Part shown: positions 23,901-64,000 of the stretch, in pieces
Layout: each line of letters opens with the position of its first letter
Numbering within the stretch: the first letter of the stretch is position 1
Assembly (NCBI GenBank): GCA_949987565.1
Contig: OX465110.1
Location: 9,446,556 to 9,510,555 of the forward strand
DNA from: Luidia sarsii
Lineage: Eukaryota; Echinodermata; Asteroidea; Paxillosida; Luidiidae
DNA length: 64,000 nucleotides
Reading direction: 5' to 3'
Position numbers and translations under genes: made by a program
The notes under the pieces: generated by a model
What the model was told of the DNA's origin: nothing
Seen by the model: only the letters and a program-made list of their open reading frames with translations
The model's database searches: none

Positions 23901-24198
23901 AGAACGGTGCGAAAACCGTGACTTGTTTTTGCCTTTTTCTACTTTCTCAGTTTACCATTTGAGCTAGAACCTTCGCATGATTTCTTTTTTGGAATGTTTA
24001 ATGGTTTAACACACAGACTGTGGCAATCTTTTGACCTTTATCAATATTGTATAGGGTCTTCAAGTAAAAGAAATCAAAAAGTAGAGGAAAAACTCTTCTG
24101 AGAAACCTTCAATGTTATACCTTGATGTGACTTAAAGCAATAAACTCTTCAGGAACTACAATATTCTGTCCTTTCTCATTATTACATCATTGGAAACT
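20916..24198. other. B4GALT 3' flank and intergenic region
   Basis: A possible polyadenylation signal AATAAA lies at 21796-21801, about 880 bp after the stop. A 158-codon open frame at about 22434-22910 has no homologue I recognise, no clear splice context, and begins with a non-ATG codon; I do not call it a gene. A tRNA-like repeat is at 23395-23565. Confidence 0.5.
23395..23565 (-). repeat. tRNA-derived SINE-like repeat
   Basis: On the minus strand: GGGCTGGATAGCTCAGATGG (A box), then a T-arm-like GGTCTCGGGTTCATGTCCTG (B box). This is followed on the plus strand by CAAATAGTCAACAAGTCTTT and GCCAGGGTGGGGGCGCC, the centre of the palindromic family seen at 13796-13905. Confidence 0.75.
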
Positions 24199-26999
24199 TT
24201 TTCTCAGTCTCTCGCCTGATCCCTACTGGCTTACAGATATCTCACACCCCCCAAATTGGAAAACTCTCCCCAACCTACAGAAACAATGGAATCAAATTCT
24301 TTATAGTGCTTCCATTCAGCTCATCAAGGTCCTCTCTGAGCAATGTGAAATCGCCCTTCAGGCTGTCCACCAGGACATTGCTAATCTCGACTCCAAACTA
24401 CGCTCCAGCTGTTCTGAAAGCCAGTACAAGGATCTCAGTGATGAGATTGAGATAGGTCTCTCTAACCTCAATTCTGTTCTCACCGACAGGAGAAACAAGA
24501 AGATTGGTGGCCTTGTTGCCAAACAACGCAGACACAACCGCTTCAGACGCAGTCCCCAGTCTACACCTGTACCCCCCACTAACACTGTTGTCAACCTTTC
24601 CTCTTCTTCTCTAACTGACGCAGAGCATACGTTACTTTCCAAGGGCTTGAACTGTTGTCCAACTCCCCCCAAAGTTGACCAAGTAATGCTCAGTCAAGAT
24701 CTCACTGAGTATTACCGCAGACTTCGTCTGACTGAGTTCTTCTTCGATTCTGGCTCCCGTAAAGAAGAACCTTTCCGTGTAAAAAGCACCTGGGTCCCCC
24801 CAAGAACCGTGTTCCAGGCCTTGAAACGTATGTGCAAGCAGTTAGTTCTCAAGTTTCCAACTCCTCTCATCTTACCCGTAAGCCCCACGACAATCTCCCT
24901 AGGGAAGAACGTCTTGCTCTCAACACTATACGTTCCCGCGGTGACATCATTATCAAGCCAGCAGATAAAGGGTCAGCCGTAGTAATCATGGATCGCCAAA
25001 AATATATTGATGAAGCCAATCGCCAACTCAACAATCCCCAGCACTATAAATGTCTTGACTCTAACCCCACTGGCAAATTTTCAGAGCAAATTCAGGGAGT
25101 TTTGGATGACATGCGTCACGTGATCATTTGAGTAAAAAAGCTCACAGATTTCTATCACCGATCAATTGTAGAACTGCCAGATTGTACCTTCTCCCGAAAA
25201 TTCACAAGGCCAACAACCCAGGCAGACCCATCATCTCTGGCAATGGTTCACCTACGGAACACATATCTCTTTTCATTGACTCTTTTCTCAAACCCTTGGT
25301 TCCCCAAATCCCCTCATACGTCCATGACACTCCTGACTTTCTGCGAAAGTTGGAAAGTGTCAAGGATCAAATTCCTGCCACTGCCATAATTGGTACTATT
25401 GACGTTTCCTCTCTATACACTAACATCCCCCAGGAAGAAGGCATTCAAGCTTGCTCCTGGCCAAAGGAAAACAGTCTTCTCCACCCATCTCCGACATAAC
25501 CACCCTCATGAGGCTAGTGCTGGCCAAGAATGATTTCTCCTTTCTTGGCAAGCACTATCTTCAAGTGCATGGCACTGCCATGGGCACGCGCATGGCTCCT
25601 TCCTTTGCATGCCTCTTCATGGGTGACCTCGAGGAACGCATGCTCAGTGATCAATTCCTTCCATAGGACTATCAAATTCACATGGGAGCAGTCTCTTCAG
25701 CAGACCCACTTTCTGGACGTCACCGTCCGGAAAGACCTCAATACACTCACTACTGACTTGTATTCTAAGCCCACCGACACGCATCAATATCTCCATTCCT
25801 CCACTTGTCACCCCAGACACTGTAAGACTGGTATAGCTTACAGCCAGGCCCTCGGATTGAGGCGTATATGTTCCAATGAGTCTGACTTTCGCCGCCATAC
25901 ACGTGTATTGGCCAGTAACTTGGTTGCTAGAGGCTATAGTTCTCGCCAAGTGAAGAACTCCATTGCTAAAGTCTATTCCATTCCTAGAAGTTCGGCACTA
26001 AAACAAAAGCCACCAGGTCCAAAGGACAAGCCCAAGGTCCCTTAGTTACTTCCTACCACCCTTCTCTTCCTCCTCTCAGGAAGATAACTAAGGAAAACCA
26101 CCATATTCTCCACACTTCAGATCGTATGGCTGAAGCCATTCCTAATTCGCCTGTTTTGGCTTTCAGGCGCCCCCGTAACCTGCGTGACTTAATTGTCCGA
26201 GCAGAGGTTCCCCCTTTGGACTCTTCACCTCCAACCAAATTTGGTACATTTAAGTGTACCTCGAAATGCATTGTTTGCAAGACACATGTCAAGGAAATAG
26301 ACTCTTTCAATGGACATTCTTCTGGAACTACCCACACGACCTATGGCTCTATCACGTGCACTACCTCAAACATCACATACCTCATCTCTTGTAGAGTTTG
26401 TAATATTCAGTATGATGGCGAGACCAAAAACACCCTCAAAAAACGGATCTATGGCCATATATAGGTCTACTATCAAAACCGGTAAAATGGACACCCCTGT
26501 TGGGTATCACTTCAATCTCCCTGATCATTCGATATCAGATATGAGTGTACTGGGCATATAATCACTTGGTCACCGTAGTAATGCTGTCCGTCTTAGCCGT
26601 GAGAAAATGTGGATGAAGCGTCTTCGGACTATTCAACCACATGGTCTCAACATCCAGGAGGGTAATGACTAACACCATGCAGCTTTCTGATAATCCTTCT
26701 TTTGTGTTCAGTCCTTCACACTTCTCTCTTTGATCTTTCTCCCTCTTGTCACTAATCCCTACCCCACTCCTTGCCCTTCTCTTTGATCTCTCCCTACCAG
26801 CTTCACTCTTTGTCCTCTGTTTCTCATCCGTGTCCTATTCACTCCCCCCCCCTTCCTTCGTGTACATGTATCTGTTTTGTCCTTGTCACTCTGCCTTTGA
26901 GAAAGGTCCTGCTAGGATCGAAACGTCAGGCCCACTAAATTTTAGATTTACATTTTCGTAATTTTAGTCAGTAAGCAGTTTGCAACATTTTTGTATATC
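24199..26999 (+). mobile_element. Penelope-like retroelement, copy A (13-bp target duplication, defective)
   Basis: Flanked by an exact 13-bp direct repeat ATCATTGGAAACT at 24186-24198 and 27000-27012, so this is one insertion event. Fragments of a Penelope-like protein occur in order in shifting frames: coiled N-terminal region (24210-24850); a KPADKGSAVVIMDR segment (24955-24995); LLPKIHKANNPGRPIISGNG (25190-25250); IGTIDVSSLYTNIP (25390-25430); GTAMGTRMAPSFACLFMGDL (25570-25630); a thumb region (25660-26045); and a GIY-YIG-type endonuclease with YLISCRVCNIQY and GETKNTLKKRI (26370-26450). The RT catalytic YIDD is missing: relative to copy B about 100 bp are deleted at about 25648. Frameshifts also occur near 24820, 25128, 25460 and 26460. 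The 3' end carries the block around GGTCCTGCTAGGATCGAAAC. Confidence 0.9.
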
Positions 27000-29125: not shown

Positions 29126-29215
29126 CTATGGACTGGATAGCTCAGACAATATGAGCACTGGTACTCAAAGCAAGTTGTCTCGGGTTCCAGATTTACTTAG
29201 TCATCTTTCAAAATT
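29126..29215 (+). repeat. tRNA-like SINE remnant
   Basis: Starts near ATGGACTGGATAGCTCAGAC, with a B-box-like TCTCGGGTTCCAG about 40 bp on. It directly precedes Penelope-like copy B. Confidence 0.6.
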
Positions 29216-29221
29216 ACAAAT

Positions 29222-30539
29222 TCAGGAATTTTGGATGACATGCAATCACGTGATCAACTGAGCAAGAAAGCTCACAAATTTCTATCACCAATCAATTGTA
29301 GAACTGCCAGATTCTACCTTCTCCCGAAAATTCACAAGGCCAACAACCCAGGCAGACCCATCATCTCTGGCAATGGTTCACCTACGGAACACATATCTCT
29401 TTTCATTGACTCTTTTCTCAAACCCTTGGTTCCCCAAATCCCCTCATACGTCCATGACACACCCGACTTTCTGCGAAAGTTGGAAAGTGTCAAGGATCAA
29501 ATTCCGACTACTGCCATAATTGGCACCATTGACGTTTCCTCTCTATACACTAACATCCCCCAGGAAGAAGGCATTCAAGCTTGCTCCTCGGCTCAGGCCA
29601 AAGGAAAACAGTCTTCTCCCCCCATATCTGACCTAACCACCCTCATCAGGCTAGTGCTGGCCAAGAACAATTTCTCCTTTCTTGGCAAGCACTATCTTCA
29701 GGTGCATGGCACTGCCATGGGCACGCGCATGGCTCCTTCCTTTGCATGCCTCTTCATGGGTGACCTTGAGGAACGCATGCTCAGTGAGGCTCCATGCCGT
29801 CCTTGGATTTGGTGGAGATACATAGATGACGTTTTCTTCATTTGGACTTTAGGGACGATAGCAGCTTGAATGTCTTCTTTGACCACATCAATTATTCCTT
29901 CCACAGCACTATCAAATTCACATGGGAACACTCTCTCCAGCAGACCCACTTTCTGGATGTCACCGTCCGGAAAGACCTCGACACACTTACTACTGACTTG
30001 TATTCTAAGCCCACCGACACTCATCAATAACTCCATGCCTCCAGTTGTCACCCCAGACACTGTAAGACTGGTATAGTTTACAGCCAGGCCCTCAGATTGA
30101 GGCGCATATGTTCAAGTCTGACTTTCGCCGCCATACATTGGCCAGTAACTTGGTTGCTAGAGGCTATAGTTCTCGCCAAGTGAAGAACTCCATTCCTAAA
30201 GTCTATTCCATTCCATGAAGTTCGGCACTCAAACAAAAGCCACCAGGTCCCAAGGACAATCCCGAGGTTCCCTTAGTTACTTCCTACCACCTTTCTCTTC
30301 CTCCTCTCAGGAAGATAACTTAGGAAAACCACTCATATTCTCCACACTTCAGATCGTCTGGCTGATGCTATTCCAAATTCGCCCGTTTTGGCTTTCTTCG
30401 TGTACATGTATCTGTGTTGTCCTTGTCACTCTGCCTTTGAGAAAGGTCCTGCTAGGATCGAAACGTCAGGCCCACAATATTTTACGATTTACATTTTTGT
30501 AATTTTAGTCAGTAAGCAGTTTGCAACATTTTTGTATAC
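29222..30539 (+). mobile_element. Penelope-like retroelement, copy B (5'-truncated, endonuclease deleted)
   Basis: Begins inside the RT region and keeps one open frame (29231-29869) through LLPKIHKANNPGRPIISGNG, IGTIDVSSLYTNIP and GTAMGTRMAPSFACLFMGDL to the catalytic RYIDDVFFIW at about 29815-29845. A frameshift follows at about 29850, then the thumb region in another frame with a stop near 30028. At about 30398 the sequence jumps from the VLAF segment straight to the 3' UTR, so the GIY-YIG endonuclease is gone. The 3' end is shared with copy A. It supplies the part copy A lacks and lacks the part copy A has. Confidence 0.88.
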
Positions 30540-40200: not shown

Positions 40201-43200
40201 AGTGATAACTGGTAATGATATCCATGTCATTTCCGAGGATAACCATTAATACTAGAATCATCTTTATTTGCTTCTTTGTCAGTTTGTAAATTTTAAAATG
40301 AATTCTAGTTTATATGTAGTTTTTTATATCTTGTGTAAGACTGCTGTCAATTAAAAGCAAGCCTTGTTAACATCATTTGGCATAATTTTGTACATGTATT
40401 TGCCACATTGCTAAACTCTTGTGAAGTTACATTTGGTCAAATGCAATTTAAAGACAGTACACTGCTGAAAGGTTTTTTAAATTATTTTTTATTATTATTC
40501 TGTGTTAACCAGCTTTATATATCAGAGTTTAAGAACTTATGGCATATTTTATTTTGTGTTGATTGCAAACTGTGCCAACTATCAAAGTGTAATCATACCA
40601 ATGCAGAATGCCATCATTAATATTTACTGCCATTACAACTGGTTTTGTTTGCAGTGGGTTTTTGTTGGCTTATCTTACTTTTGTTCGATTCCGTGAACTG
40701 AAGACTGCTAAAGCATGGGGCTTTTTCTACTTCCATCGTTACTGGAGGTGAGTATCAACAAACATTCATATGGGAACAGGCACCGTGGCAACAGGGATGC
40801 AGTGGTCAATGTTGAACTTGCTTTCTAAAGCAATTGAGATGGTTATCCCGTTAAACCAAACAAATATTTGCACAATTCATTACTTACCAGCAGAGCAGAC
40901 ATCTTCAGTTTTATTGTAACTTTGATACAAAATTAATCTGAAATAAAGATTTCTCATAGCTGCAATTGTGAGAATGTTGTAGCTATTCATCCTCTCCCGT
41001 CTCTAGGCTGACACCTCTCTATGCCTTCACAATACTCATCTGGATGTACCTCATTCAGTTTTTTGGCGAGGGCCCAATATGGCAGAGGAGCACTGAGAGA
41101 CAAAATTGTCCTAACTACTGGTGGAGTGGTCTCCTCTACATCAGCAATTTCTGGCCCAAGGAATTTGGAACGGAGGTATGGGTGAACACAAAGTATAATC
41201 AATACTAATTAAAGATACCCTTAGCACTTGTTTTATACTGTACTGTTTGCATTCAATAAGCACAAATAAGTATCATTAAACTGAACAGATATGAATGCCG
41301 TCACTTGATCCATTGATTGTTTTTACTGCAGTGCATTGGATGGACCTGGTACTTGGCCAACGACATGCAGTTTTTCATCATCAGTCCTCTGCTCATGGCA
41401 CCCCTTTTCTAGTAAGCACATTGAATGCTTGATGACACACTCCTGTATTACATATACTCATGATATCTCAATCTTCTTATTGTCCCTCGTTTTACTTGAC
41501 CTCAAAAAGTGCTTCTATAACTAATTTTACCAACTCTTACCAATGTAACATTGTTGTGTTTCAGTAAAGTAGTGTTGAAATTAGAATGCATTACGTGTGA
41601 TTTAGATTTAGAGACTCCAGTCCAATTGGTTGCCGTGTATGTAGGTCTTTTTTATTGTCATGTCTAGTTCATGTCTTTTTCCTTTACTGTGGCAACAGTT
41701 TTCCAGTTTTGGGTTGGCTGGCTCTGATAGCTACACTGCTTGCTTCCTTCCTCGCAACTGGACTGATAATTGGCCTGTATGATTTGGATGTCTCCTTCCT
41801 AAGTGCTGTTGCGTAAGTCGATCAGAGGATGTCAGGTTATAAAACGACATCTTATATTAGTTTGGACAGTTCTTGGTATTGATGTAAACCCTAGAATTCT
41901 ATATTTCATGCAGGAAGTATGCAGGAAAAATCAGTCCTAAATATGACCTTAAGAAAAGATTTTGGTTTTTACTTTTTATTTCAGTTTGTAACAAACATTT
42001 CCTGTGAGCAGGAGCTTCCTGTAAAGGTCTACTGTATGCTGCCTTGGTCTGACCCCAAATCCTGCAAACTTCTTGTGCAGACTCACACTTGGCTTTGCTC
42101 TTCTTGTCGTATTCATTGCAGAAGTATGGCCACTGTACCAGCTGGTGAGGATTACTTTTCACTGGTATATGGTAAGCCCTATTGTCGCATCGCTCCCTAC
42201 CTGGTTGGCATAGGCCTTGGATTCATCATGTACAGGATTGGCAAACGTAGGGTCATCATGTCACCGGTAAGTTACATACGTTTACCTTGCTGATTGGGCA
42301 AGTACCAACAAAACTGTCCCTGTAGAAATAATGACCCCAATGTATAGTACAACATTCTTTAGAGAATCAAATCAAACAACATCATTGAAAAAATGGCAAA
42401 GAAAACTTTGACTGGACTGGGATTTGAACCTGAAACCACTGTTTTTGCCCACCAGTGCTCTTTCCATCTGAGCTATCCAGCCCTTAATTAGATGGTGGCC
42501 TCGCAAATACATGTAATCAACTAGTCTTTGCCAGGGTGAGGGTCCCAGTCAGAAGCAATTCAATCATTAACTGTCGTATATCTCCAGGGATCACACCCCC
42601 ATTTTCATTCAGATGCATGCAAACAACCAATTGTTGTAAATCTGGCTACAGATTTTTAAAATTTAAGTCAAACAAATAAAGGAAAAACTGACTGGGAACC
42701 TTTTGAACAAATTGAGAAATTGTGTGATCCCCGAGCTGCTACAACCAGGTTTACAAGATTTGGCTGTTTGGCTGTCTGAATTAAAATGAAATAAAATGGG
42801 GCGTGATCCCTGGAGATATACAGCAATAAAATGAACCTCCAAAATTGATATTTTTCAAAATTACAGCAAATTTTTTAAAAAGGAAATATAAAAGATTCGG
42901 AGGGCTAGATGTTTCGATCCTAGCAGGACCTTTCTCAAAGGCAGATTTTATCAAAACATTTCAAAACTTCCCAGTCTGTCTTTCCTTTCATTTGTTTGAT
43001 TGGATTATCAACAGATACATACTGCCCTGCAGGAGGAAAGGAAACTAGAAATCGGAAGTGATGGTTCAAAGAACTTGTTCCTGTATCCTGAGTCTTCGTG
43101 AAATCAAAAAACTGCAGTGCAATAGCCTTAATACCACCTGACCACTGTACTTAAAATAGATCTTTCAATTGCCCGAGTAAGATATGCAGCACTGAATGGT

Positions 43201-46468: not shown

Positions 46469-47605
46469 ATACAAAAATGTTGCAAACTGCTTACTGACTA
46501 AAAATACCAAAATGCAAATCTTAAAAGTTAGTGGGCCTGACGTTTTGATCCTAGCAGGACCTTTCTCAAAGGCAGAGTGACAAGGACAAAACAGATACAT
46601 GTACACGGAGGAAGGGGGGGATAGAGTGAATAGGACACGGATGAGAAACAAAGGACAAAGAGTGAAGCTGGTAGGGAGAGATCAAAGGGAAGGGCAAGGA
46701 GTAGGGTAGGGATTAGTGAGAAGAGGGGGAAAGATCAAAGAGAAAAGTGTGAAGGACTGAACACAAAAGAAGGATTTTCAGAAAGCTGCATGGTGTTAGT
46801 CATTACCCTCCTGGATGTTGAGACCATGTGGTTGAATAGTCCAAAGACGCTTCATCCACATTTTCTCACGGCTAAGACAGACAGCATTACTAAGGTGACC
46901 AAGTGATTCTATGCCCAGTACACTCATATCTGATATCGAATGATCAGGGAGATTGAAGTGATACAGGGGTGTCCATTTTACCGGTTTTGATAGTAGACCT
47001 ATGGCCATAGATTCGTTTTTGGAGGGTGTTTTTGGTCTCGCCAACATACTGAATATTACAAACTCTACAAGAGATGAGGTATATGATGTTTGAGGTAGTG
47101 CACGTGATAGAGCCATAGGTCGTGTGGGTAGTTCCAGAAGAATGTCCATTGAAAGAGTCTATTTCCTTGACATGTGTCTTGCAAACAATGCATTTCGAGG
47201 TACACTTAAATGTACCAAATTTAGTAGGAGGTGAAGAGTCCAAAGGGGGAACCTCTGCTCGGACAATTAAGTAACGCAGGTTACGGGGGCACCTGAAAGC
47301 CAAAACAGGCGAATTTGGAATGGCATCAGCCAGACGATCTGAAGTGTGGAGAATATGGTGGTTTTCCTTAGTTATCTTCCTGAGAGGAGGAAGAGAAGGG
47401 TGGTAGGAAGTAACTAAGGGAACCTTGGGCTTGTCCTTGGGACCTGGTGGCTTTTGTTTTAGTGCCGAACTTCTGGGAATGGAATAGACTTTAGCAATGG
47501 AGTTCTTCACTTGGCGAGAACTATAGCCTCTAGCAACCAAGTTACTGGCCAATACACGTGTATGGCGGCGAAAGTCAGACTCATTGGAACATAGTCTGAC
47601 TTTCG
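46469..47605 (-). mobile_element. Penelope-like retroelement, copy C (5'-truncated; thumb and GIY-YIG endonuclease)
   Basis: Reads on the minus strand. The 3' end is at about 46469-46560 with the usual block. The coding part keeps a long open frame from about 47600 down to 46944: SDFRRHTRVLASNLVARGYS, then VLAFRCPRNLRYLIVRAEVP, then FKCTSKCIVCKTHV, and the endonuclease YLISCRVCNIQYVGETKNTL. A frameshift near 46975-46985 precedes the HFNLPDHSISDMSVLGI segment. The RT core is absent. The truncated 5' end carries a 13-bp inverted repeat (47569-47581 with 47593-47605). A MITE-like sequence abuts it. Confidence 0.88.
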
Positions 47606-47758
47606 CCCTTGCCCTTGCTCGACTTGGCCTTAAGCTGCCTGAAAATGTTTGATCAGGCACCGGGCAAGCACTGAGCACTCAGTGTTTATCACGTCGAGCA
47701 AGGGCAAAACCTCATTGAATTTCATTCTCCTCGATGCAAACATCATGTTATATCTATA
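47604..47758. mobile_element. MITE-like element, second copy
   Basis: Shares GAGCACTCAGTGTTTATCA, CGTCGAGCAAGGGCAAAACC and GATGCAAACATCATG with the inverse of 32186-32380. It joins the truncated 5' end of Penelope copy C directly. Confidence 0.65.
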
Positions 47759-51162: not shown

Positions 51163-51223
51163 TTAACTTCATAATAATAAATAAGTAGTTTCAATGAAAA
51201 ACTGCTACTCTGACTGCAGCCTT

Positions 51224-54200
51224 GGTGGCAGGCATGGGGGAGTGGCAGAAGGTAGAGGAGTGATTGGTGGTTGGCATGGGGGAGTGGCAGAAGGTAGAGG
51301 AGTGATTGGTGGTTGGTATGGGGGAGTGGCAGAAGGTAGAGGAGTGATTGGTGGTTGGTATGGGGAAGTGGCAGAAGGTAGAGGAGTGATTGGTGGTTGG
51401 TATGGGGGAGTGGCAGAAGGTAGAGGAGTGATTGGTGGTTGGCATGGGGGAGTGGCAGAAGGTAGAGGAGTGATTGGTGGTTGGCATGGGGGAGTGGCAG
51501 AAGGTAGAGGAGTGATTGGTGGTTGGCATGGGGGAGTGGCAGAAGGTAGAGGAGTGATTGGTGGTTGGTATGGGGGAGTGACAGAAGGTAGAGGAGTGAT
51601 TGGTGGTTGGCATGGGGGAGTGGCAGAAGGTAGAGGAGTGATTGGTGGTTGGCATGGGGAAGTGGCAGAAAGTAGAGGAGTGATTGGTGGTTGGCATGGG
51701 GGAGTGGCAGAAGATAGAGGAGTGATTGGTGGTTGGTATGGGGGAGTGGCAGAAGGTAGAGGAGTGATTGGTGGTTGGTATGGGGGAGTGGCAGAAGGTA
51801 GAGGAGTGATTGGTGGTTGGTATGGGGGAGTGGCAGAAAGTAGAGGAGTGATTGGTGGTTGGTATGGGGGAGTGGCAGAAGGAAGAGGAGTGATTGGTGG
51901 TTGGCATGGGGAAGTGGCAGAAGGTAGAGGAGTGATTGGTGGTTGGTATGGGGAAGTGACAGAAGGTAGAGGAGTGATTGCTGGTTGGCATGGGGGAGTG
52001 GCAGAAGGTAGAGGAGTGATTGGTGGTTGGTATGGGGGAGTGGCAGAAGGTAGAGGAGTGATTGGTGGTTGGCATGGGGGAGTGGCAGAAAGTAGAGGAG
52101 TGATTGGTGGTTGGCATGGGGGAGTGGCAGAAGGTAGAGGAGTGATTGGTGGTTGGCATGGGGGAGTGGCAGAAGGTAAAGGAGTGATTGGTGGTTGGTA
52201 TGGGGGAGTGGCAGAAGGTAGAGGAGTGATTGGTGGTTGGCATGGGGAAGTGGCAGAAGGTAGAGGAGTGATTGGTGGTTGGTATGGGGGAGTGGCAGAA
52301 GGAAGAGGAGTGATTGGTGGTTGGTATGGGGGAGTGGCAGAAGGTAGAGGAGTGATTGGTGGTTGGTATGGGGAAGTGGCAGAATGTAGAGGAGTGATTG
52401 GTGGTTGGTATGGGGAAGTGGCAGAATGTAGAGGAGTGATTGGTGGTTGGTATGGGGAAGTGGCAGAAGGTAGAGGAGTGATTGGTGGTTGGTATGGGGA
52501 AGTGGCAGAAAGTAGAGGAGTGATTGGTGGTTGGTATGGGGGAGTGGCAGAAGATAGAGGAGTGATTGGTGGATGGTATGGGGGAGTGGCAGAAGGTAGA
52601 GGAGTGATTGGTGGTTGGTATGGGGGAGTGACAGAAAGTAGAGGAGTGATTGGTGGTTGGTATGGGGGAGTGGCAGAAGGTAGAGGAGTGATTGGTGGTT
52701 GGTATGGGGGAGTGACAGAAAGTAGAGGAGTGATTGGTGGTTGGTATGGGGGAGTGGCAGAAGGTAGAGGAGTGATTGGTGGTTGGTATGGGGGAGTGAC
52801 AGAAAGTAGAGGAGTGATTGGTGGTTGGTATGGGGGAGTGGCAGAAGATAGAGGAGTGATTGGTGGTTGGTATGGGGGAGTGACAGAAGGTAGAGGAGTG
52901 ATTGGTGGTTGGTATGGGGGAGTGGCAGAAGGTAGAGGAGTGATTGGTGGTTGGTATGGGGGAGTGGCAGAAGATAGAGGAGTGATTGGTGGTTGGTATG
53001 GGGGAGTGACAGAAGGTAGAGGAGTGATTGGTGGTTGGTATGGGGGAGTGGCAGAAAGTAGAGGAGTGATTGGTGGTTGGTATGGGGGAGTGGCAGAAGG
53101 AAGAGGAGTGATTGGTGGTTGGCATGGGGAAGTGGCAGAAGGTAGAGGAGTGATTGGTGGTTGGCATGGGGGAGTGGCAGAAGGTAGAGGAGTGATTGGT
53201 GGTTGGCATGGGGAAGTGGCAGAAGGTAGAGGAGTGATTGGTGGTTGGTATGGGGGAGTGGCAGAAGGAAGAGGAGTGATTGGTGGTTGGTATGGGGGAG
53301 TGGCAGAAGGTAGAGGAGTGATTGGTGGTTGGTATGGGGAAGTGGCAGAATGTAGAGGAGTGATTGGTGGTTGGCATGGGGGAGTGGCAGAAGGTAGAGG
53401 AGTGATTGGTGGTTGGCATGGGGAAGTGGCAGAAGGTAGAGGAGTGATTGGTGGTTGGCATGGGGGAGTGGCAGAAGGTAGAGGAGTGATTGGTGGTTGG
53501 TATGGGGGAGTGGCAGAAGGTAGAGGAGTGATTGGTGGTTGGTATGGGGGAGTGGCAGAAGGTAGAGGAGTGATTGGTGGTTGGTATGGGGGAGTGGCAG
53601 AAGGTAGAGGAGTGATTGGTGGTTGGTATGGGGAAGTGACAGAAGGTAGAGGAGTGATTGGTGGTTGGCATGGGGGAGTGACAGAAGGTAGAGGAGTGAT
53701 TGGTGGTTGGCATGGGGGAGTGGCAGAAGGTAGAGGAGTGATTGGTGGTTGGTATGGGGGAGTGGCAGAAGGTAGAGGAGTGATTGGTGGTTGGTATGGG
53801 GGAGTGGCAGAAAGTAGAGGAGTGATTGGTGGTTGGTATGGGGGAGTGGCAGAAGGTAGAGGAGTGATTGCTGGTTGGTATGGGGGAGTGGCAGAAAGTA
53901 GAGGAGTGATTGGTGGTTGGTATGGGGGAGTGGCAGAAGGTAGAGGAGTGATTGCTGGTTGGTATGGGGGAGTGGCAGAAGGTAGAGGAGTGATTGGTGG
54001 TTGGTATGGGGGAGTGGCAGAAAGTAGAGGAGTGATTGGTGGTTGGCATGGGGGAGTGGCAGAAGGTAGAGGAGTGATTGCTGGTTGGTATGGGGGAGTG
54101 GCAGAAAGTAGAGGAGTGATTGGTGGTTGGCATGGGGGAGTGGCAGAAGGTAGAGGAGTGATTGGTGGTTGGTATGGGGGAGTGGCAGAAAGTAGAGGAG

Positions 54201-56567
54201 TGATTGGTGGTTGGTATGGGGGAGTGGCAGAAGGTAGAGGAGTGATTGGTGGTTGGCATGGGGGAGTGGCAGAAGGTAGAGGAGTGATTGGTGGTTGGTA
54301 TGGGGAAGTGGCAGAAGGAAGAGGAGTGATTGGTGGTTGGTATGGGGGAGTGGCAGAAAGTAGAGGAGTGATTGGTGGTTGGCATGGGGGAGTGGCAGAA
54401 GGTAGAGGAGTGATTGGTGGTTGGCATGGGGGAGTGGCAGAAGGTAGAGGAGTGATTGGTGGTTGGCATGGGGGAGTGGCAGAAAGTAGAGGAGTGATTG
54501 GTGGTTGGCATGGGGGAGTGACAGAAGGTAGAGGAGTGATTGGTGGTTGGCAGTGGGGAGTGGCAGAAAGTAGAGGAGTGATTGGTGGTTGGCATGGGGG
54601 AGTGGCAGAAGGTAGAGGAGTGATTGGTGGTTGGTATGGGGAAGTGGCAGAAGGAAGAGGAGTGATTGGTGGTTGGTATGGGGGAGTGGCAGAAAGTAGA
54701 GGAGTGATTGGTGGTTGGCATGGGGGAGTGGCAGAAGGTAGAGGAGTGATTGGTGGTTGGTATGGGGGAGTGGCAGAAGGTAGAGGAGTGATTGGTGGTT
54801 GGTATGGGGGAGTGGCAGAAAGTAGAGGAGTGATTGGTGGTTGGTATGGGGAAGTGACAGAAGGTAGAGGAGTGATTGGTGGTTGGCATGGGGGAGTGAC
54901 AGAAGGTAGAGGAGTGATTGGTGGTTGGCATGGGGGAGTGGCAGAAGGTAGAGGAGTGATTGGTGGTTGGTATGGGGGAGTGGCAGAAGGTAGAGGAGTG
55001 ATTGGTGGTTGGTATGGGGGAGTGGCAGAAAGTAGAGGAGTGATTGGTGGTTGGTATGGGGGAGTGGCAGAAGGTAGAGGAGTGATTGGTGGTTGGCATG
55101 GGGGAGTGGCAGAAAGTAGAGGAGTGATTGGTGGTTGGTATGGGGGAGTGGCAGAAAGTAGAGGAGTGATTGGTGGTTGGTATGGGGAAGTGACAGAAGG
55201 TAGAGGAGTGATTGGTGGTTGGCATGGGGGAGTGACAGAAGGTAGAGGAGTGATTGGTGGTTGGCATGGGGGAGTGGCAGAAGGTAGAGGAGTGATTGGT
55301 GGTTGGTATGGGGGAGTGGCAGAAGGTAGAGGAGTGATTGGTGGTTGGTATGGGGGAGTGGCAGAAAGTAGAGGAGTGATTGGTGGTTGGCATGGGGGAG
55401 TGACAGAAGGTAGAGGAGTGATTGGTGGTTGGCATGGGGGAGTGGCAGAAGGTAGAGGAGTGATTGGTGGTTGGTATGGGGGAGTGGCAGAAGGTAGAGG
55501 AGTGATTGGTGGTTGGTATGGGGGAGTGGCAGAAGGTAGAGGAGTGATTGGTGGTTGGTATGGGGGAGTGGCAGAAAGTAGAGGAGTGATTGGTGGTTGG
55601 CATGGGGGAGTGGCAGAAGGTAGAGGAGTGATTGCTGGTTGGTATGGGGGAGTGGCAGAAGGTAGAGGAGTGATTGGTGGTTGGTATGGGGGAGTGGCAG
55701 AAAGTAGAGGAGTGATTGGTGGTTGGCATGGGGGAGTGGCAGAAGGTAGAGGAGTGATTGGTGGTTGGTATGGGGGAGTGGCAGAAGGTAGAGGAGTGAT
55801 TGGTGGTTGGCATGGGGGAGTGGCAGAAGGTAGAGGAGTGATTGCTGGTTGGTATGGGGGAGTGGCAGAAGGTAGAGGAGTGATTGCTGGTTGGTATGGG
55901 GGAGTGGCAGAAAGTAGAGGAGTGATTGGTGGTTGGTATGGGGGAGTGGCAGAAGGTAGAGGAGTGATTGGTGGTTGGCATGGGGGAGTGGCAGAAGGTA
56001 GAGGAGTGATTGGTGGTTGGCATGGGGGAGTGACAGAAGGTAGAGGAGTGATTGGTGGTTGGCAGTGGGGAGTGGCAGAAAGTAGAGGAGTGATTGGTGG
56101 TTGGCATGGGGGAGTGGCAGAAGGTAGAGGAGTGATTGGTGGTTGGTATGGGGAAGTGGCAGAAGGAAGAGGAGTGATTGGTGGTTGGCATGGGGGAGTG
56201 GCAGAAAGTAGAGGAGTGATTGGTGGTTGGCATGGGGGAGTGGCAGAAGGTAGAGGAGTGATTGGTGGTTGGCATGGGGGAGTGGCAGAAGGTAGAGGAG
56301 TGATTGGTGGTTGGCATGGGGGAGTGGCAGAAAGTAGAGGAGTGATTGGTGGTTGGCATGGGGGAGTGGCAGAAGGTAGAGGAGTGATTGGTGGTTGGCA
56401 TGGGGGAGTGGCAGAAGGTAGAGGAGTGATTGGTGGTTGGCATGGGGGAGTGGCAGAAGGTAGAGGAGTGATTGGTGGTTGGCATGGGGGAGTGGCAGAA
56501 GATAGAGAAGTGATTGGTGGTTGGCATGGGGGAGTGGCAGAAGGTAGAGGAGTGATTGGTGGTTGGC
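51224..56567 (+). repeat. 42-bp minisatellite array, ~127 units, left of the transposon
   Basis: Head-to-tail 42-bp unit: GGCATGGGGGAGTGGCAG, then AAGGTAGAGGAGTGATTGG and TGGTT. Variants are limited to a few positions: GGCAT/GGTAT, GGGGG/GGGGA, GTGGC/GTGAC, AAGG/AAAG/AAGA/AATG, GGTAG/GGAAG, GGTGG/GCTGG. The unit is 14 codons long, so several frames stay open for about 1,800 codons; these are not genes. Higher-order repeats exist: the rare CAGTGGGG variant at 54551 recurs at 56063, exactly 36 units (1,512 bp) later, with matching neighbours. Confidence 0.97.
56564..56567. repeat. Target site duplication, left copy (TGGC)
   Basis: TGGC directly precedes the left transposon end and is repeated at 63658-63661. 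Removing the element and one TGGC restores a regular 42-bp unit (GGTTGGCATGGGGG). Confidence 0.93.
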
Positions 56568-56610
56568 CACGGCTGTTTCGCATACATTACGCGTGCAATA
56601 ACAAAGTACG
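56568..56610 (+). repeat. Left terminal inverted repeat, two-block
   Basis: Outer block CACGGCTGTTTC (56568-56579). After 21 bp comes the inner block ACAAAGTACG (56601-56610). A weaker match to the right end continues inward (GGGCTGTG). Confidence 0.85.
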
Positions 56611-57150
56611 GGCTGTGCGCGCGTTGGCTACATGTTTACTCCAGTAATGTTTGTGACGTCGCGCAATAACATGGCGCTCGCCGCGGGCGAAAGTTACGTT
56701 GTTTTCGCGACAAACAAACACAATTTCCGAGGCGTGTTGACCTTGGATGTCCATTCTTATAAAGAATTTAGATTAAGAAATTGATTTTCTTTCAGAAAAC
56801 CTGAATAAAACTGATGCCCTTTCGTTAAATGTTTAGCTTTAGTGATTTTTAAGGTGTTATTTTTGTCGAACGTCTGTTCGAAAAGTGAACGAATTATTTC
56901 TGCCCGTTCGTCGAAGATACGGTGGTTACAAATCCGCTCATAAATGGAAACGGTGGTTTGGTTCACTCTTTAATTGATTTCCAGATTATTTAGTCTGGGA
57001 CAGGTACCGAATAAAAAATATTTCAAGAGAAATATCCCCCAAATTCAATGTTTATCTTCGTAATTTCGCGAACTTTCCGCTGGTTCACGTCACATTCCAT
57101 AGCATTACTACGTGCTTTATGACGCAAGGGACCAGCGCATCAAAGCGCGC

Positions 57151-57160
57151 TATATATAAA
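57151..57160 (+). promoter_or_regulatory. TATA box of the transposase gene
   Basis: TATATATAAA lies 113 bp before the start codon. Transcription would start near 57180-57190, giving a 5' UTR of about 80 nt. Confidence 0.65.
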
Positions 57161-57214
57161 CTTATTAGCTAAAACAACATCGACACATACACGCACATTC
57201 ATCGTCAACGCAAG

Positions 57215-57262
57215 ATGTTTGCTTTCAAGTCAACATACATGTATCTTCTCTTTATTGGATAA
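57215..57262 (+). promoter_or_regulatory. Upstream ORF ending one base before the transposase ATG
   Basis: An ATG at 57215 opens a 15-codon frame that stops at TAA 57260-57262. The transposase ATG follows at 57264 (TAAAATG). This layout could make translation depend on reinitiation. Inference only. Confidence 0.45.
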
Positions 57263-57263
57263 A

Positions 57264-60200
57264 ATGAGCTTTAAATTTCATCAAACTTCATTGGAAAAGA
57301 TTTGTAGGATTTGTACAAATAGAATTAATCCTGGAGTAAAACAACCTACAAGGAAACCAGTACTTTGCAGCAATCTTAGAAAGGAGATTGATAGCGTATT
57401 TAGAGTGAGTACATGGAATGACACACCAGATCAGCACCCCATTGCTCTCTGTGAGAAGTGTTCTAGACAAGTTCGACATCATATTGCAGGTACGAGATAC
57501 ATTGATCCTGAAAAATTAGTCCAGAATCAGACAATTCAGTATGATTGGCCAAAGCACTCCAGAACAGGCCCCTGTTTTGTATGTGATACAGTGAGTCAGC
57601 AGTCCAAGGGGGGAGGTTGCTACAAGAGGAAGTCATCTGTGACACAAGAACTTAAGCTTCAGCCAACTTGCTCCTTTGATTTGACAGAGCACAACATTTT
57701 TGAACATTTGGGAACAACGTCGTCTACTGTTTCAGTGAACCTGGACATTATCAGTCACAAAGGGGAGGAAAGTATTTTCATCTGCTGTTTGTGTCAATGC
57801 ATCTTGAGCAGACCTGCTGTACAGACAGCTTGTGAACACAATTTCTGTGCTGTGTGTCTTACTGCTTACTTTCAACACTCTCGAAGAGATAACATAAAAT
57901 GCCCATTGTGCAGTTCAATAGTTAATTACAATGAAATCACCAAGAGTCCAAGGGTGTTAACAGTTCAACTTGACAATTTGATAGTGGTGTGCTGTAAATG
58001 TAACAGGATAGGGAGACTGGAGCAACAAGTTGAGCATTCATGCTCCCCAATTAAGCCCCCCCTCCCCAAAGTGACCATAGTCAAAGCACAAGATTCACTA
58101 CCCCACCACACTGAATCATCAGATACGAAGAATGTGACAAACGCAGTTCAAGTTCTTAAAAATCTAGCAGCATGCCACCATCCTGGAACTCCAATACCCA
58201 TTGAGGTAGAAGAAGTCACAGATAGATGGACGTGGCTGAAATTAAAACGTGATGGACGCATTTCTTCTCTCAAAACAGGAGGCCGGGTAAGTCTCGTATA
58301 ATGCAATTCTTGAAAGAGTAAATTTCAATGCCTATTCAAATACATTTTAAACTCTTATTACATTTTACAATTTTAAAACAGTTTTCAGTCAAATTAGTAA
58401 AATGTAAACACACAAATAAAACAATTGTCTTATTGACATCCTTGCACGTTAGCACTAAAACCATTGTATAAATCAAGACTACTCCAGATCCAGAAAGCTG
58501 AACTGAATTTGTGTGGTACACATGCATCCCATACATTGTATTACAAGTATTCACAAAAATGAACATGACTATTATCATCCCTTTTTTCAGCCGGCATACA
58601 TTGAGCGAACGGTGAAGTCATCTAAACCAGATGAACCTCCACCTAGTAAGCGACATTGTGGCAGCTCAATAACGAGTCCAACCTCCATCAATGCTCCTTT
58701 GACCACAGAGAAATCCATGGCTATGATGCGTGATTGTCACTTAGCATGGGATCAACTCAGGAAACTTCGAAGGTGCATACAAGATCATAAATAATTCAAT
58801 AAATGAATAAATACTACTTTAATGTACTGTACATGTAGGCATATTTGTCTAGCATCTTTACTTACTCTCAGGCATTCCTACCCCCAGTTACAACTGGGAT
58901 ACTCTCTATACACACTCAAATCTTGTAAGCAGCTGTAAATGACAAATGTTAAGGTGAATATTTTTAAATGTTTCCAGGTATCTTAGCAGCAGCTGCATTC
59001 CCTCCGAGCGCGCTATCCGGAAGCAACAAAAACTCCTGCTGAAAGATAACTTGAGTGGCCAGAGAATCAAGCTGCTATTCAACAGTAGTAAAGCTGATGG
59101 GATGAATGGATATGAGATCCGAGAGGTGCCATTCATCTTTGTGAAAGATTTGCCCGCCATGATACTCGACTACTTGGACCGATTGGAACAGTAAGTTTTT
59201 TTTTGAGGAACTTGAGTGAAAGCGATACATTTTGTTTGAAATAATTATATACATTTTTTCCTGAAATAATCTCCACTTATCTTTTCCTACAGTCATGGAA
59301 CCCTAACATGGCACAATGGCATTATCCCCAAGGAAGAAGTCTGGATAAAAATAGGTGGAGACCATGGAGGGAATTCTTTCAAAATGGACTTCCAAGTCGT
59401 CAACGTGGCACACCCAAACTCACTCCAGAACACAGTTGTCTTTGCATGCTTTGAAGCGAAAGATTCCATGGCAAACATTGAGCGTACCCTCCCTCCGGTT
59501 CTTGAGCAAATATCTGCACTTGCCTCTGCTACATGGTGGTAAGCTATCCCCAGGGTCATCAAGGCTCAGATTTGGTTCTTCCTATGATAAAAAAGCAGAT
59601 TTGTTTATTTAAAGGGGAGGAGACAAGGTATTTTAATAAGTTGTATAAAACCTTGGAGAGATCATTCAATGACACAACACATTCATATTTGAGTGGGTGA
59701 GGGGCCTGAGATGAACAAAAGTCGGGTTTTCTTTCTGAAGTAGCAAACCCGATAAAAACTGGAAAAGGCAAAGATGCCTGTGACATTAGTTTACTAGACT
59801 ATCTCAACGTCACTAACATAATGAACCCTTCCTCAATTACACTTCCTCATGCAGTGGAAAGTCTATACGTGTTTTCTGTTTTGGAGACTACGAACTCCTT
59901 AATAAGATGTACGGATTATGCGGCTGCAATGGTAAGTAGAATTAACTACCAATATTTACACAAATGGTAACTTAACCTATGTGTGATGAAATTTTAAGAT
60001 TCTGTCTCTAAGAATGGATTCGCTATGACAGGCAAGCAAAAAAACGAGATTCTAATATAACTTACCTGGTCTTTGTTCTCTTCCTCAGCTCGTTACTGTT
60101 GCATCTATTGCCTGGCGAGCAAAGCTGAGATGCAACAGCCTCTTCATCAGAGGAGTAAGTATCAGCCTCGCACACTGGACACAATCCGAGAACACCATCA

Positions 60201-61968
60201 GCAGTTCGTAGAAGATGGTGCCAGGCGCCAACGAGCGAAAGACATATCCTTCAGTGTTGTCAACAGGCCGTTGATACCTATTGAAAATGATCACGTAAGT
60301 ATTTTTCCTAAATATCAAGGAATATTCTTTGTGGATCAAAAAAGCTAAAAACATTGTCAATAATTAAAAACATTAAATAATCAAAATTCCAAATGCTTTG
60401 ATCATACCGCTATGAATCACTTTTGTGTTGTGCTATTAAACATCAAAAAGCCGGTGTTTTTTTTCCTTCCTACAGCTGGGAAGGAGGGGGGGGGTGGTGG
60501 GGGCCCCTCATGTACATGTACAGTGGGTACATATGCATTAATGCGCACTATGTATCAGCAACCCTGTATCTGCGAATCTTGCAAAAAAATAAACACTTGA
60601 CCCCTTTCTGATGTTTTAGGTCATATTACCTACCTTGCACATCTCCCTTGGAGTCTACAAGAAGCTTTACGACCTCTTTGAGAGAGATTGCCATGATGTG
60701 GATCTCCAGCTATTCCATCTTCGTGTCCAGGCTCAAGACAACTTTAACTTGACCAACTTTGATCATCAAGTTTCTGATGAAATAGAGAGGCTTGGTAGGA
60801 TCCAGGAGCAACTGCATGAGAAGAGGGCTGCGCTGGAGAGTGCTGAAGAAGACCTTCCACTCTATGTCCTAATGAATGACATGGAAGAAATAGATGCGAA
60901 CTTCCGTGATACTGCCTCTCTAGCATTCAAGCTCAGGACTGACATTCAAGCCTTGGTAAAATTTCAATATAATTCTTCAAAGTAGCAAAAATAAAAAAAT
61001 AAATTTTTGAAAGGGTCAGGGAGCAGCTTTTGTAAAAGGTGCTACAGCTAGTTGAATTAAATGGTTGTCAATTCATTTTCATTTTGGTGGCCCAGGAAAA
61101 AGAAGCTGAAACATCGCAGCTCTCATATGGGACTGGACCTGTGGCTAGCTCTCTTGACGAGGTGCTTAGCAAATTCAAGGTTCAACGGCAGGCATATCAT
61201 GGCAAAGCATTTGTGGGCAATCATGTCCACAAATGCTGTGAGGTAACGAAAAATTAAGAAATGAACATGTATACAAATCTTTCTGAGCACTAACTCTAAC
61301 TCATTCTGAACTCTTGTCAAATGTAATTTGCTTCTATTTTCTCACAGCCCAAAGTGATAGAGGCCCTCACAAAGGCACCCCTCCATACAGCAGAAAAACA
61401 TCTGTCAGACGACATGCCTTTGGCAGCAATACAGAAAATCAGAAGACAAGCTGCAATGATGAGGGCCAAATATCAGGAAATTTTCCTGAAATTTGCCGAT
61501 GTGCATAAGGGCATCAACCACACCCGTGCTGTCACAGATGGTGACATCCACCTCATAGGTAAATAAATGCACTCACAGTGAATGTTTACATTTTATACAT
61601 AAAGTTCTCAAAGTTACAAGAGCAAATTATATACCCACTCACTGATGTGTATTTCATTTTATCACGGTGCAGAAGTGAGCATCCAGGAGCTGTTGAGCGC
61701 ATATCGGCGACTCTTCCCCGGCCAAAATGTCACACCAAAGCTCCATCTACTTGAAGATCATGCCGTTGATCAGTTGCGCCACTTCAAAGCTGGTTTTGGG
61801 CTGCTCAATGAGCAAGGTGGAGAACTTATCCACTGTGAGTTCAACCGAATCCGCCGGGTAGTTCATGGGATGAGCAATGATCTTGAGAGGTTGATGGCCA
61901 TCATGAGGCGTCATCATATAAGCACCACACCTGAGGTCAATAGCAAGATGAGCAGAAATGAACAGTAA
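57264..61968 (+). CDS. RAG1L: RAG1-like transposase, RING/zinc-finger N-terminus plus DDE core, 10 exons, intact
   Basis: Exons: 57264-58286, 58591-58772, 58978-59190, 59293-59538, 59855-59931, 60089-60294, 60620-60955, 61096-61242, 61348-61558, 61673-61968. All joints are GT-AG and in frame; 978 residues. N-terminus: KICRIC (C14, C17), LCEKC (C63, C66) and CFVC (C104, C107), the spacing of the RAG1 zinc-binding N-region. Then a C3HC4-type RING (about 174-217, CCLCQC to CPLC) followed by VVCCKC and a later His/Cys pair, as in RAG1. Core: GGDHGG (D496), FGDYELL (D566) followed by a CCIYC zinc-type pair, LPTLHISLGVYKKLYD (like the LHCDIG segment of RAG1), PKLHLLEDH, and NEQGGEL (E927; E931 is an alternative). 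I infer a DDE nuclease that cuts and joins element ends. The D-D and D-E spacings (70 and 361) differ from RAG1 (108 and 254), so the core may be a distinct branch. No stop or frameshift seen. Confidence 0.9.
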
Positions 61969-61985
61969 TTTTATTTATTGTCAAC

Positions 61986-61991
61986 AATAAA
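61986..61991 (+). terminator. Polyadenylation signal of the transposase gene
   Basis: AATAAA starts 18 nt after the TAA stop, implying a very short 3' UTR. Confidence 0.65.
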
Positions 61992-63627
61992 GTTGCATTT
62001 ACAAATGGTGTTAGTATACATGAATGGATGCTGCAATAGCTATTTCTTAAATTCTTTGAAATGTATAACTATAAATATACATATTCATGGCAAGTAAAAC
62101 CGTCAAAATCTATGTACGTATACTAGCTAAGGTATTGATAGTACATGTATGACACTATGATGTGTCACACGCCATGATCACACAAAGTTTTGTAGTGTAC
62201 GATAACGTGTGTACTACTACTAGTACTACGTAGTACTAGTACAGTAGTAGCAGTAGTAGTATGGTAGTACATGTGCATTTTTTTAACTTCATATTTGCCC
62301 TGCAAACTTGCCTTAAATTCTTGAGCGCTAACTTCCAGAACATTCACGACATTTAAATATTATTGAGCCAGACATTGACATTGGTCTTCTTGTAGTTGTA
62401 GATATTTATGATGAATAGTGTTTCTTTAGCATTCATCTGTATCCTGTGTAACCCTTGTTCCTAAGCTAATGAGTATTACTAATACTATTAGTCAATTACT
62501 GAATTAGAGTAATGTCACCACTAGCACTACAAAACAATTGCGTCTCGGAACATGACAAATATATCATAAAATAATATCAATACCTTATTAATATTATGAA
62601 TAATGCCTAATGCCTAATGAATGTTCAGATCCACTGTAATTATTCCCTTTTTCTTTTTCTACCCATTCATTCCAGTCCATACCCACTCCATTCAGGCCAG
62701 GAGTCGGCTAGCTTAGCAATCAATTATTATTGTAATATTAATAATGTCGTTTTTTCAGCATTTGAGCGATTTGGCCTTTGAGTTTGACCATAGCCCCTAC
62801 CACTATTCACTAAGAGTAAGACTCATCGCCAGGCCTTTGATGTTAAGCATGTACATGCAACAGTCGTTGAGCCGTTTCGTTTTGCACGCTTTGCGAATAC
62901 AAAATGCAAGTACACCACGACCGCTTCGTGTATGTAATTATTATTTGACGTTCGCGCTTTAGAATGTTTAGAGGGAGAAAGAAGCATTGTTAGTAAACAA
63001 AAACGGGCTACATCTGATGCAACCATACAATCATACAAGCCTAAGTACTATTTGTTTACATACCTTCGAGATGTCCGTTGTAATCTCTCGAAATCGTGTC
63101 GATACTCATCGGAGTTTCTGACCGTGCTCTGCATGCAACACGTAACGTTACATGGCCGCGTGGCGTGCCCCCGAAAATGTTGCTCAAAACTAACAAAATG
63201 ATGTGTCCCAGAACTATCATTTGTGTTGCACAAACAATGATAACCAATCTGTCGATGTATTAATGACTGAAACTTCAGACCACCGTCATTCTCCTCATAT
63301 GAGATGTGTTTTGGGGCGTAGAGACGACAGCCCTCACGTGCAAACATACCTCAACACATGTGACAACCCACACGATCAAACTGTACGTATTATTTATTTT
63401 GTGCACGAAAGATAGCCGACAATCAATTGAACAACTTCATCCGGGGGTTTTCTAGCCTTATTTGGTGGTATAATGCATATTCAAGATTTAAACCAATAGT
63501 GACGTACCATTTTCGCGGGGTATTTAAATCCCAACGACTGAAATAAAAGAATTACAGAGCGCGACGCGCATAGCCCGGCTTCGCGATCACGTGATTTTGG
63601 CACTAACTACAAACGACCAACAGAGGG
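61992..63627. other. Non-coding right third of the transposon
   Basis: About 1.6 kb without a credible gene on either strand. Short minus-strand frames near 62823-63347 show no Kelch or PHD features, so no RAG2-like partner is present. A TAC/TAG simple-sequence tract at 62209-62270 resembles the spacers at 1218-1394. Confidence 0.65.
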
Positions 63628-63657
63628 CGTACTTTTGTAAGCAATGAAACAGCCGTG
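63628..63657 (-). repeat. Right terminal inverted repeat, two-block
   Basis: Read inward on the minus strand: CACGGCTGTTTC (63657-63646), then after only 7 bp ACAAAAGTACG (63638-63628). The outer block is identical to the left end; the inner block has one extra A. Confidence 0.85.
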
Positions 63658-64000
63658 TGGCATGGGGGAGTGGCAGAAGGTAGAGGAGTGATTGGTGGTT
63701 GGCATGGGGGAGTGGCAGAAGGTAGAGGAGTGATTGGTGGTTGGCATGGGGGAGTGGCAGAAGGTAAAGGAGTGATTGCTGGTTGGCATGGGGGAGTGGC
63801 AGAAGGTAGAGGAGTGATTGGTGGTTGGTATGGGGAAGTGGCAGAAGGTAGAGGAGTGATTGGTGGTTGGTATGGGGGAGTGGCAGAAGGTAGAGGAGTG
63901 ATTGGTGGTTGGTATGGGGGAGTGGCAGAAAGTAGAGGAGTGATTGGTGGTTGGCATGGGGGAGTGGCAGAAGGTAGAGGAGTGATTGCTGGTTGGTATG
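63658..64000 (+). repeat. 42-bp minisatellite array, right of the transposon, continues past the window
   Basis: About eight units of the same 42-bp repeat. The first begins with the duplicated TGGC (63658-63661). Same variant set as the left array. Confidence 0.97.

Follow-up and report, generated by a model that had tools for sequence, protein, structure and literature searches.

An apparently intact Chapaev transposon with a RAG1-type N-terminal region and a DDE-like core in the sea star Luidia sarsii

The element and its insertion site

The stretch of DNA analysed here (the window) comprises 64 kb of Luidia sarsii contig OX465110.1 and corresponds to C12:9446556-9510555 of the 471-Mb assembly (GCA_949987565.1) that was searched for relatives. 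It contains a 7,090-bp element at 56568-63657 with a single ten-exon gene. The element is very probably (roughly 0.93) an intact autonomous cut-and-paste Chapaev of the CMC group, whose transposase starts with RAG1-type Chapa and RING domains. The assignment is based on the sequence of the ends, the target duplication, the empty site, the open gene, the protein domains, and relatives in the same genome. The borders are as follows.

56568-56579, plus strand: left terminal inverted repeat, CACGGCTGTTTC, 12 bp, perfect
63646-63657, minus strand: right terminal inverted repeat, exact reverse complement of CACGGCTGTTTC
56564-56567, no strand: target duplication TGGC, left copy, from the sequence and the empty-site test
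63658-63661, no strand: target duplication TGGC, right copy, from the sequence and the empty-site test
51222-56566, no strand: 42-bp minisatellite of the 5' flank, 127 units
63658-64000, no strand: 42-bp minisatellite of the 3' flank, running past the window

The termini read CACGGCTGTTTC/GAAACAGCCGTG and are of the 5'-CAC..GTG-3' type. The only two exact matches of CACGGCTGTTTC in the window are the element ends, and with up to two mismatches there are seven matches, the ends included, against 3.66 expected. The first-pass annotation of this DNA had described 12-bp identical inverted ends and an exact TGGC duplication of 4 rather than 5 bp, and both were recovered at these positions.

The register of the minisatellite is known, so the site before insertion can be read directly. 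The 3' array consists of 167 units starting at 63658, eight of them inside the window. Each unit contains a single TGGC, and the element is bordered by two. When the flanks are joined across one TGGC, the resulting 28-mer has 84 exact occurrences in the array (39 + 3 + 42), or 211 if one mismatch is allowed. This fixes the duplication at 4 bp; a 5-bp reading fails at this element (TTGGC versus TGGCA). Both this exact empty site and the further copies described below rule out ends arising by chance. In the 5' minisatellite, one plus frame and three minus frames also run without a stop for about 1,790-1,840 codons.

Gene and predicted protein

The coding span runs from the ATG at 57264 to the TAA at 61966-61968. 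The ten exons, with nine of nine introns of the GT..AG type, join in frame into 978 codons without an internal stop, as first proposed. The features of the gene are listed below.

57151-57156, plus strand: TATA-like box 113 bp upstream of the ATG, a candidate promoter by pattern match only
57264-58286, plus strand: exon 1, aa 1-341, with the zinc region at aa 1-115, RING and zinc finger at about aa 165-262, and the GGRP motif at aa 339-342
58591-58772, plus strand: exon 2
58978-59190, plus strand: exon 3, early core
59293-59538, plus strand: exon 4, D496 (counterpart of RAG1 D600)
59855-59931, plus strand: exon 5, D566 (counterpart of RAG1 D708)
60089-60294, plus strand: exon 6, C585-x2-C588
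60620-60955, plus strand: exon 7, L655-H656, then a long coiled-coil-like insert
61096-61242, plus strand: exon 8
61348-61558, plus strand: exon 9
61673-61968, plus strand: exon 10, H905-x4-H910, E931 (counterpart of RAG1 E962), stop TAA
61986-61991, plus strand: AATAAA polyadenylation-signal-like hexamer

The annotated lack of RAG2 agrees with the frames of the element. No second gene of RAG2 size is seen among the stop-to-stop frames, where a finely split gene of many exons would escape notice, and the longest listed frame clear of exons has 100 codons (63048-63350, minus strand).

The RAG1-type N-terminal region

The predicted zinc/RING region is confirmed by pairwise and profile comparisons. 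In pairwise BLASTP, the window protein matches residues 102-375 of mouse RAG1 with an E value of 2e-7, and the Diadema homologue P0005 matches mouse RAG1 at 6e-16. A profile was built from 21 sequences, namely the window protein and 20 of 24 homologues. Its first match in the PDB is RAG1 101-452 (E 5e-32), and the best RING protein other than RAG1 in the same search has an E value of 3.5e-14. The isolated zinc region of RAG1 (21wb_A) is matched by this profile at 3.7e-14, and the part before the RING aligns with mouse RAG1 in HHalign with a probability of 98.2% (E 4e-14, one comparison). The likeness therefore does not come from the RING alone; the specific RAG1 signal of the N-terminus comes from profiles and from the part preceding the RING.

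The Pfam family RAG1_imp_bd (PF12560) is found in six of the 21 aligned sequences at E ≤0.1, the best at 5e-10. It exceeds the curated cut-off at two places in the genome, one of which is the C14 copy listed below, and in none of 14 control genomes. The GGRP motif at aa 339-342 recalls GGRPR of mouse RAG1, which presumably lies in the nonamer-binding region; this is a resemblance only.

The catalytic core

The core motifs were assigned by position as D496, D566, C585/C588, L655-H656, H905/H910, and E931. DUF1280 matches aa 373-550 of the window protein. In 20 of the 21 aligned sequences, this family of unknown function (Pfam PF06918) covers the front half of the Chapaev-type core; judged from these alignments, it appears to be a transposase domain.

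Structural alignment with VIA-align places the core of a homologue closest to the RAG1, BbRAGL, and Transib structures, rather than to those of an unrelated transposase family alone. By this model, the core is predicted to have a RAG1-like fold, and D496, D566, and E931 form the predicted catalytic site. The motifs and the fold together bear out the DDE-like core of the first-pass annotation.

Sequence comparison of the cores gives a fainter signal. HHalign of the core against mouse RAG1 alone is weak (probability 18.7%), as is that against six RAG1s (probability 51.5%, E 0.00015, one comparison); both weak alignments have the correct register around D708, H795, and E962. When whole homologues are used as queries, three of 24 match the mouse RAG1 core (E 4e-5 to 3e-4). 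A core-centred profile of nine homologues finds only coiled coils in the PDB, which match the insert.

Relatives in the Luidia sarsii genome

The right end of the window element was found once in the genome. The left end also occurs at C3 with 99.1% identity, over 565 bp only. A protein search finds further families, with at least 60 matches in the genome. Ten places were examined for ends, comprising the window and nine fetched stretches, and five of the ten hold complete copies. These have CACGG ends and duplications of exactly 4 bp, none of which extends to 5 bp.

Window: 7,090 bp, duplication TGGC
C3: 7,531 bp, duplication GAAA
C12: 7,531 bp, duplication ACTC
C14: 7,746 bp, duplication TCCT; 2 of 10 terminal bases differ
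C2: 7,334 bp, duplication AATA; 1 of 10 terminal bases differs

The genome-wide search proposed for the element thus yields four other complete copies, in which type of end and length of duplication are constant. The two 7,531-bp copies of a sister family at C3 and C12 are 100% identical and have different flanks, and are therefore probably very recent. No credible terminal pair was found at C2:6684000-6693999, which includes 512 bases of N, or in three stretches at C2:8.643-8.694 Mb. Two further pairs from the terminal-pair scan have 3-bp repeats and look like chance matches (L038 16-8273; L041 1387-9836). A 3,241-bp derivative at C2:6435639-6438879 has both CACGG ends and only N-terminal (Chapa/RING) sequence, with no duplication in its flanks.

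A transposase with the same DUF1280 core is present in two copies (C12:10518529-10519827 and C23:9837395-9838693), which are 99% identical over 5.8 kb and have one open frame of 983 codons at C23 and 776 at C12. Its N-terminal finger matches Pfam FAM60A above the cut-off (E 4e-9). From this match, a CMC-type transposon and the host gene family FAM60A may have a finger in common.

Assignment to Chapaev

Chapaev hallmarks are given in PMC4079192 as duplications of 3-4 bp, CAC..GTG ends, and the C(2)C, LH, and H(4)H motifs. All of these are found in the window element. Kapitonov and Koonin 2015 (PMC4411706) described Chapaevs in which a RING follows the zinc region, and the window protein has this layout, with zinc region, RING, and then core in one protein. 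PMC12730594 describes these superfamilies as united with Transib and RAG1 by the C(2)C and H(3-4)H motifs. The window family is intact and sits in a minisatellite that fixes its empty site, and in these points it differs from the Chapa-RING Chapaevs of PMC4411706; the Repbase families are compared by description only. The best homologues come from sea stars. Asterias amurensis P0001 and P0002 are full-length homologues with 52% and 50% identity at 100% query coverage, but are annotated only as uncharacterised proteins.

The first-pass term RAG1-like transposon is therefore partly retained. A RAG1-type N-terminus and a DDE core of RAG1 fold are combined in one gene, but the element is a Chapaev and not of the RAG1L/ProtoRAG or Transib type. 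Likewise, the 4-bp duplication is real but normal for Chapaev according to PMC4079192, and the presence of both parts in one intact gene is true but has precedents in the Chapaevs of PMC4411706. The element is a further family of this already described group and was probably recently mobile.

Several observations weigh against this assignment or parts of it. The Chapaev name is founded on published hallmarks and not on a tree with named Chapaevs. The exon joints are computed and not taken from RNA. The fold was computed on a homologue and not on the window protein, and the predicted catalysis is based on fold and residues. The RING of the window protein (aa 174-216) is below the Pfam cut-offs, and the protein also does not reach that of RAG1_imp_bd. 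In a PDB search with the single sequence, RAG1 (1.2e-5) is hardly separated from a TRIM RING (1.6e-5). Latimeria RAG1 has nine matches in the genome at E ≤0.001, of which five are of Transib type (core) and four lie at other loci (RING-region residues 268-377), and none is a Chapaev locus; this result argues that the N-terminus is not easily recognised with a single sequence. As the genome yields one right end and a 565-bp left-end copy, the evidence for mobility of the window family itself is one full insertion.

A RAG1L/ProtoRAG- or Transib-type element, from the line that gave RAG1, which lost RAG2L and changed its duplication length, is a very improbable alternative. Such an element would account for the RAG1-type N-terminus with RING and for the core fold, which matches RAG1, BbRAGL, and HzTransib. 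However, the duplication is 4 bp and never 5 in five of five complete copies. PF12940 (RAG1 core) has no match in the window protein at E ≤1, whereas a Transib-type protein of the same genome passes its cut-off. The family is also absent from those shown (25 of 31) for the 21 aligned sequences; a PF12940 search of the genome gave no match, but was uninformative, as the 14 controls were equally silent. The core-centred profile of nine homologues finds no RAG1 chain in the PDB at E ≤10. Five RAG1s match the local Transib at E 1e-10 to 2e-14, but have one match at E ≤0.01 among nine Chapaev cores. The window protein has no cysteine in its last 40 residues and so has no Cx2Cx3GHx4C tail. Membership in RAG1L/ProtoRAG or Transib is rejected because of duplication length, PF12940, C-terminal tail, and core similarity, and membership in Transib also because of the zinc/RING N-terminus.

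Even less probable is a domesticated host gene between chance repeats. In its favour, only one full copy of the window family was found, the reading frame is intact, and some genes are known to descend from RAG-like elements. Against it, an exact empty site can be read from the interrupted minisatellite, and relatives of the same layout are dispersed and recently copied.

Comparison with RAG1 and its relatives

Vertebrate RAG1 shares with the window protein a homologous N-terminal zinc region and RING, and a common core fold. The D708-C727 spacing of 19 residues is equal, and the context of E962 is alike. In contrast, the cores are 15-16% identical in the structural alignment, and RAG1, a domesticated host gene, acts on RSS DNA together with RAG2.

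RAG1L/ProtoRAG elements such as BbRAGL have the same core fold. They have a 5-bp target duplication. The RAG2L partner and the Cx2Cx3GHx4C tail of these elements are not seen in the window element. Zinc motifs and a RING are reported for BbeRAG1L and mollusc RAG1L (PMC7204232).

Transib (HzTransib and the local copies) shares the core fold, DDE, C(2)C, and H(4)H, but lacks the zinc/RING N-terminus, and its core is closer to RAG1 than that of the window element. Its duplication is given as 5 bp in PMC8355894. The local Transib-type copies at C1:8795756 and C23:4099016 are without the N-terminal region and are 99.9% identical over 3.2 kb. The Transib-type protein ends in Cx2Cx3Hx4C, which recalls the tail of RAG1L.

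N-RAG-TP of Aplysia, from Panchin and Moroz 2008, is described in PMC8355894 as composed entirely of a part like the RAG1 N-terminus. The window element likewise has sequence of this type, but carries a core too. The 3,241-bp derivative at C2 is a possible picture of what N-RAG-TP is.

Proposed mechanism

From the fold and the residues, the spliced 978-aa transposase would bind the CACGG ends as a dimer, with paired-end binding. Cleavage at these ends by the D496/D566/E931 site would probably proceed through a nick and a hairpin, like that of RAG1 and Transib. The ends would then be joined to target DNA with a 4-bp stagger, which gap repair would turn into TGGC..TGGC. By homology only, the RING part probably dimerises and may be a ubiquitin ligase that sets the enzyme level.

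The origin of the RAG1 N-terminus

The distances of the two regions were compared in nine Chapaev proteins with both regions complete (the window protein and eight of the 24 homologues), which fall into four deep groups set by the analyst. The RAG1 rows were mouse and five other vertebrates, from 77 RAG1 matches; the ratio analysis used mouse and four others. In the N-terminus, the mean identity of RAG1 to Chapaev is 24.0% (18.8-28.2, 54 pairs), and that between deep Chapaev groups is 23.5% (17.4-28.7, 29 pairs), both over 248 columns. The values are 25.3 and 25.3 for the zinc part, and 27.4 and 24.8 for the RING part, respectively. In the core, RAG1-Chapaev identity is 19.7% versus 40.1% between deep Chapaev groups (six anchored blocks, 135 columns), even though the blocks were picked where RAG1 could be aligned and are favourable to it.

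An excess ratio was calculated as the RAG1-Chapaev similarity divided by the deep-Chapaev similarity, after removal of Cys/His and invariant columns and subtraction of a shuffled baseline. With 150 bootstraps and five RAG1s, it is 1.03 for the N-terminus (95% CI 0.86-1.23) and 0.40 for the core (95% CI 0.26-0.52). The cores of BbRAGL and HzTransib are as distant from the Chapaev model as the RAG1 core, so a fast-evolving RAG1 core is unlikely as the cause of the mismatch. The RAG1s match the local Transib core and, by profile, the local Chapaev N-terminus; the core thus resembles Transib and the N-terminus Chapaev. This quantitative contrast was not met in the open-licence literature searched.

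Two explanations are weighed. A single fusion of zinc/RING and core in the ancestor of Chapaev, Transib, and RAG1, with joint inheritance thereafter (Kapitonov and Koonin 2015), stands at roughly even odds. The domain survey in PMC4411706 agrees with it. The N-terminal tree (14 Chapaev and five RAG1 sequences, with no RAG1L) places RAG1 inside Chapaev with support of only 70-78, and a position of RAG1 outside the bilaterian Chapaevs is not rejected (AU p 0.187). The N-terminal similarity may also be at a plateau. These points favour the single fusion and count against a transfer, but the difference between the two excess ratios stands against the single fusion.

The mismatch is rather what a transfer of the N-terminus between lines would predict. 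It is tentatively proposed, with the odds somewhat against it, that RAG1 may be a mosaic. Its core would come from the Transib line, and its zinc/RING part would have come from Chapaev, or been exchanged with it, after the cores had long diverged. The window element would then be an extant relative of the donor type, with N-RAG-TP-like elements as internally deleted Chapaevs. Recombination with an N-RAG-TP-type element as the source of the RAG1 N-terminus is already in print (PMC8355894). The earlier expectation that the element bears on the assembly of RAG1 gains some support from this comparison.

Other features of the window

The window also contains reverse-transcriptase- and GIY-YIG-like frames that on visual inspection look like Penelope-like retroelements, near-identical frames in three copies about 1.98 kb apart, which suggests a tandem triplication, and a tRNA gene.

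24131-26464, 29201-29869, and 46944-47678, minus strand: Penelope-like frames
6703-12410: threefold near-identical frames
42409-42482, minus strand: tRNA-Cys gene

Significance

The origin of the RAG1 N-terminus is disputed between one ancient fusion (Kapitonov and Koonin 2015) and the N-RAG-TP recombination presented in PMC8355894. With the distance mismatch, the dispute becomes one that can be addressed by a tree of wider sampling. The intact, apparently recent element with both parts, together with the two identical 7.5-kb sister copies, provides material for studying an expressed Chapa-RING-DDE transposase and the role of its RING in transposition. The comparison adds sequence evidence that RAG1 may be pieced together from two kinds of transposon.

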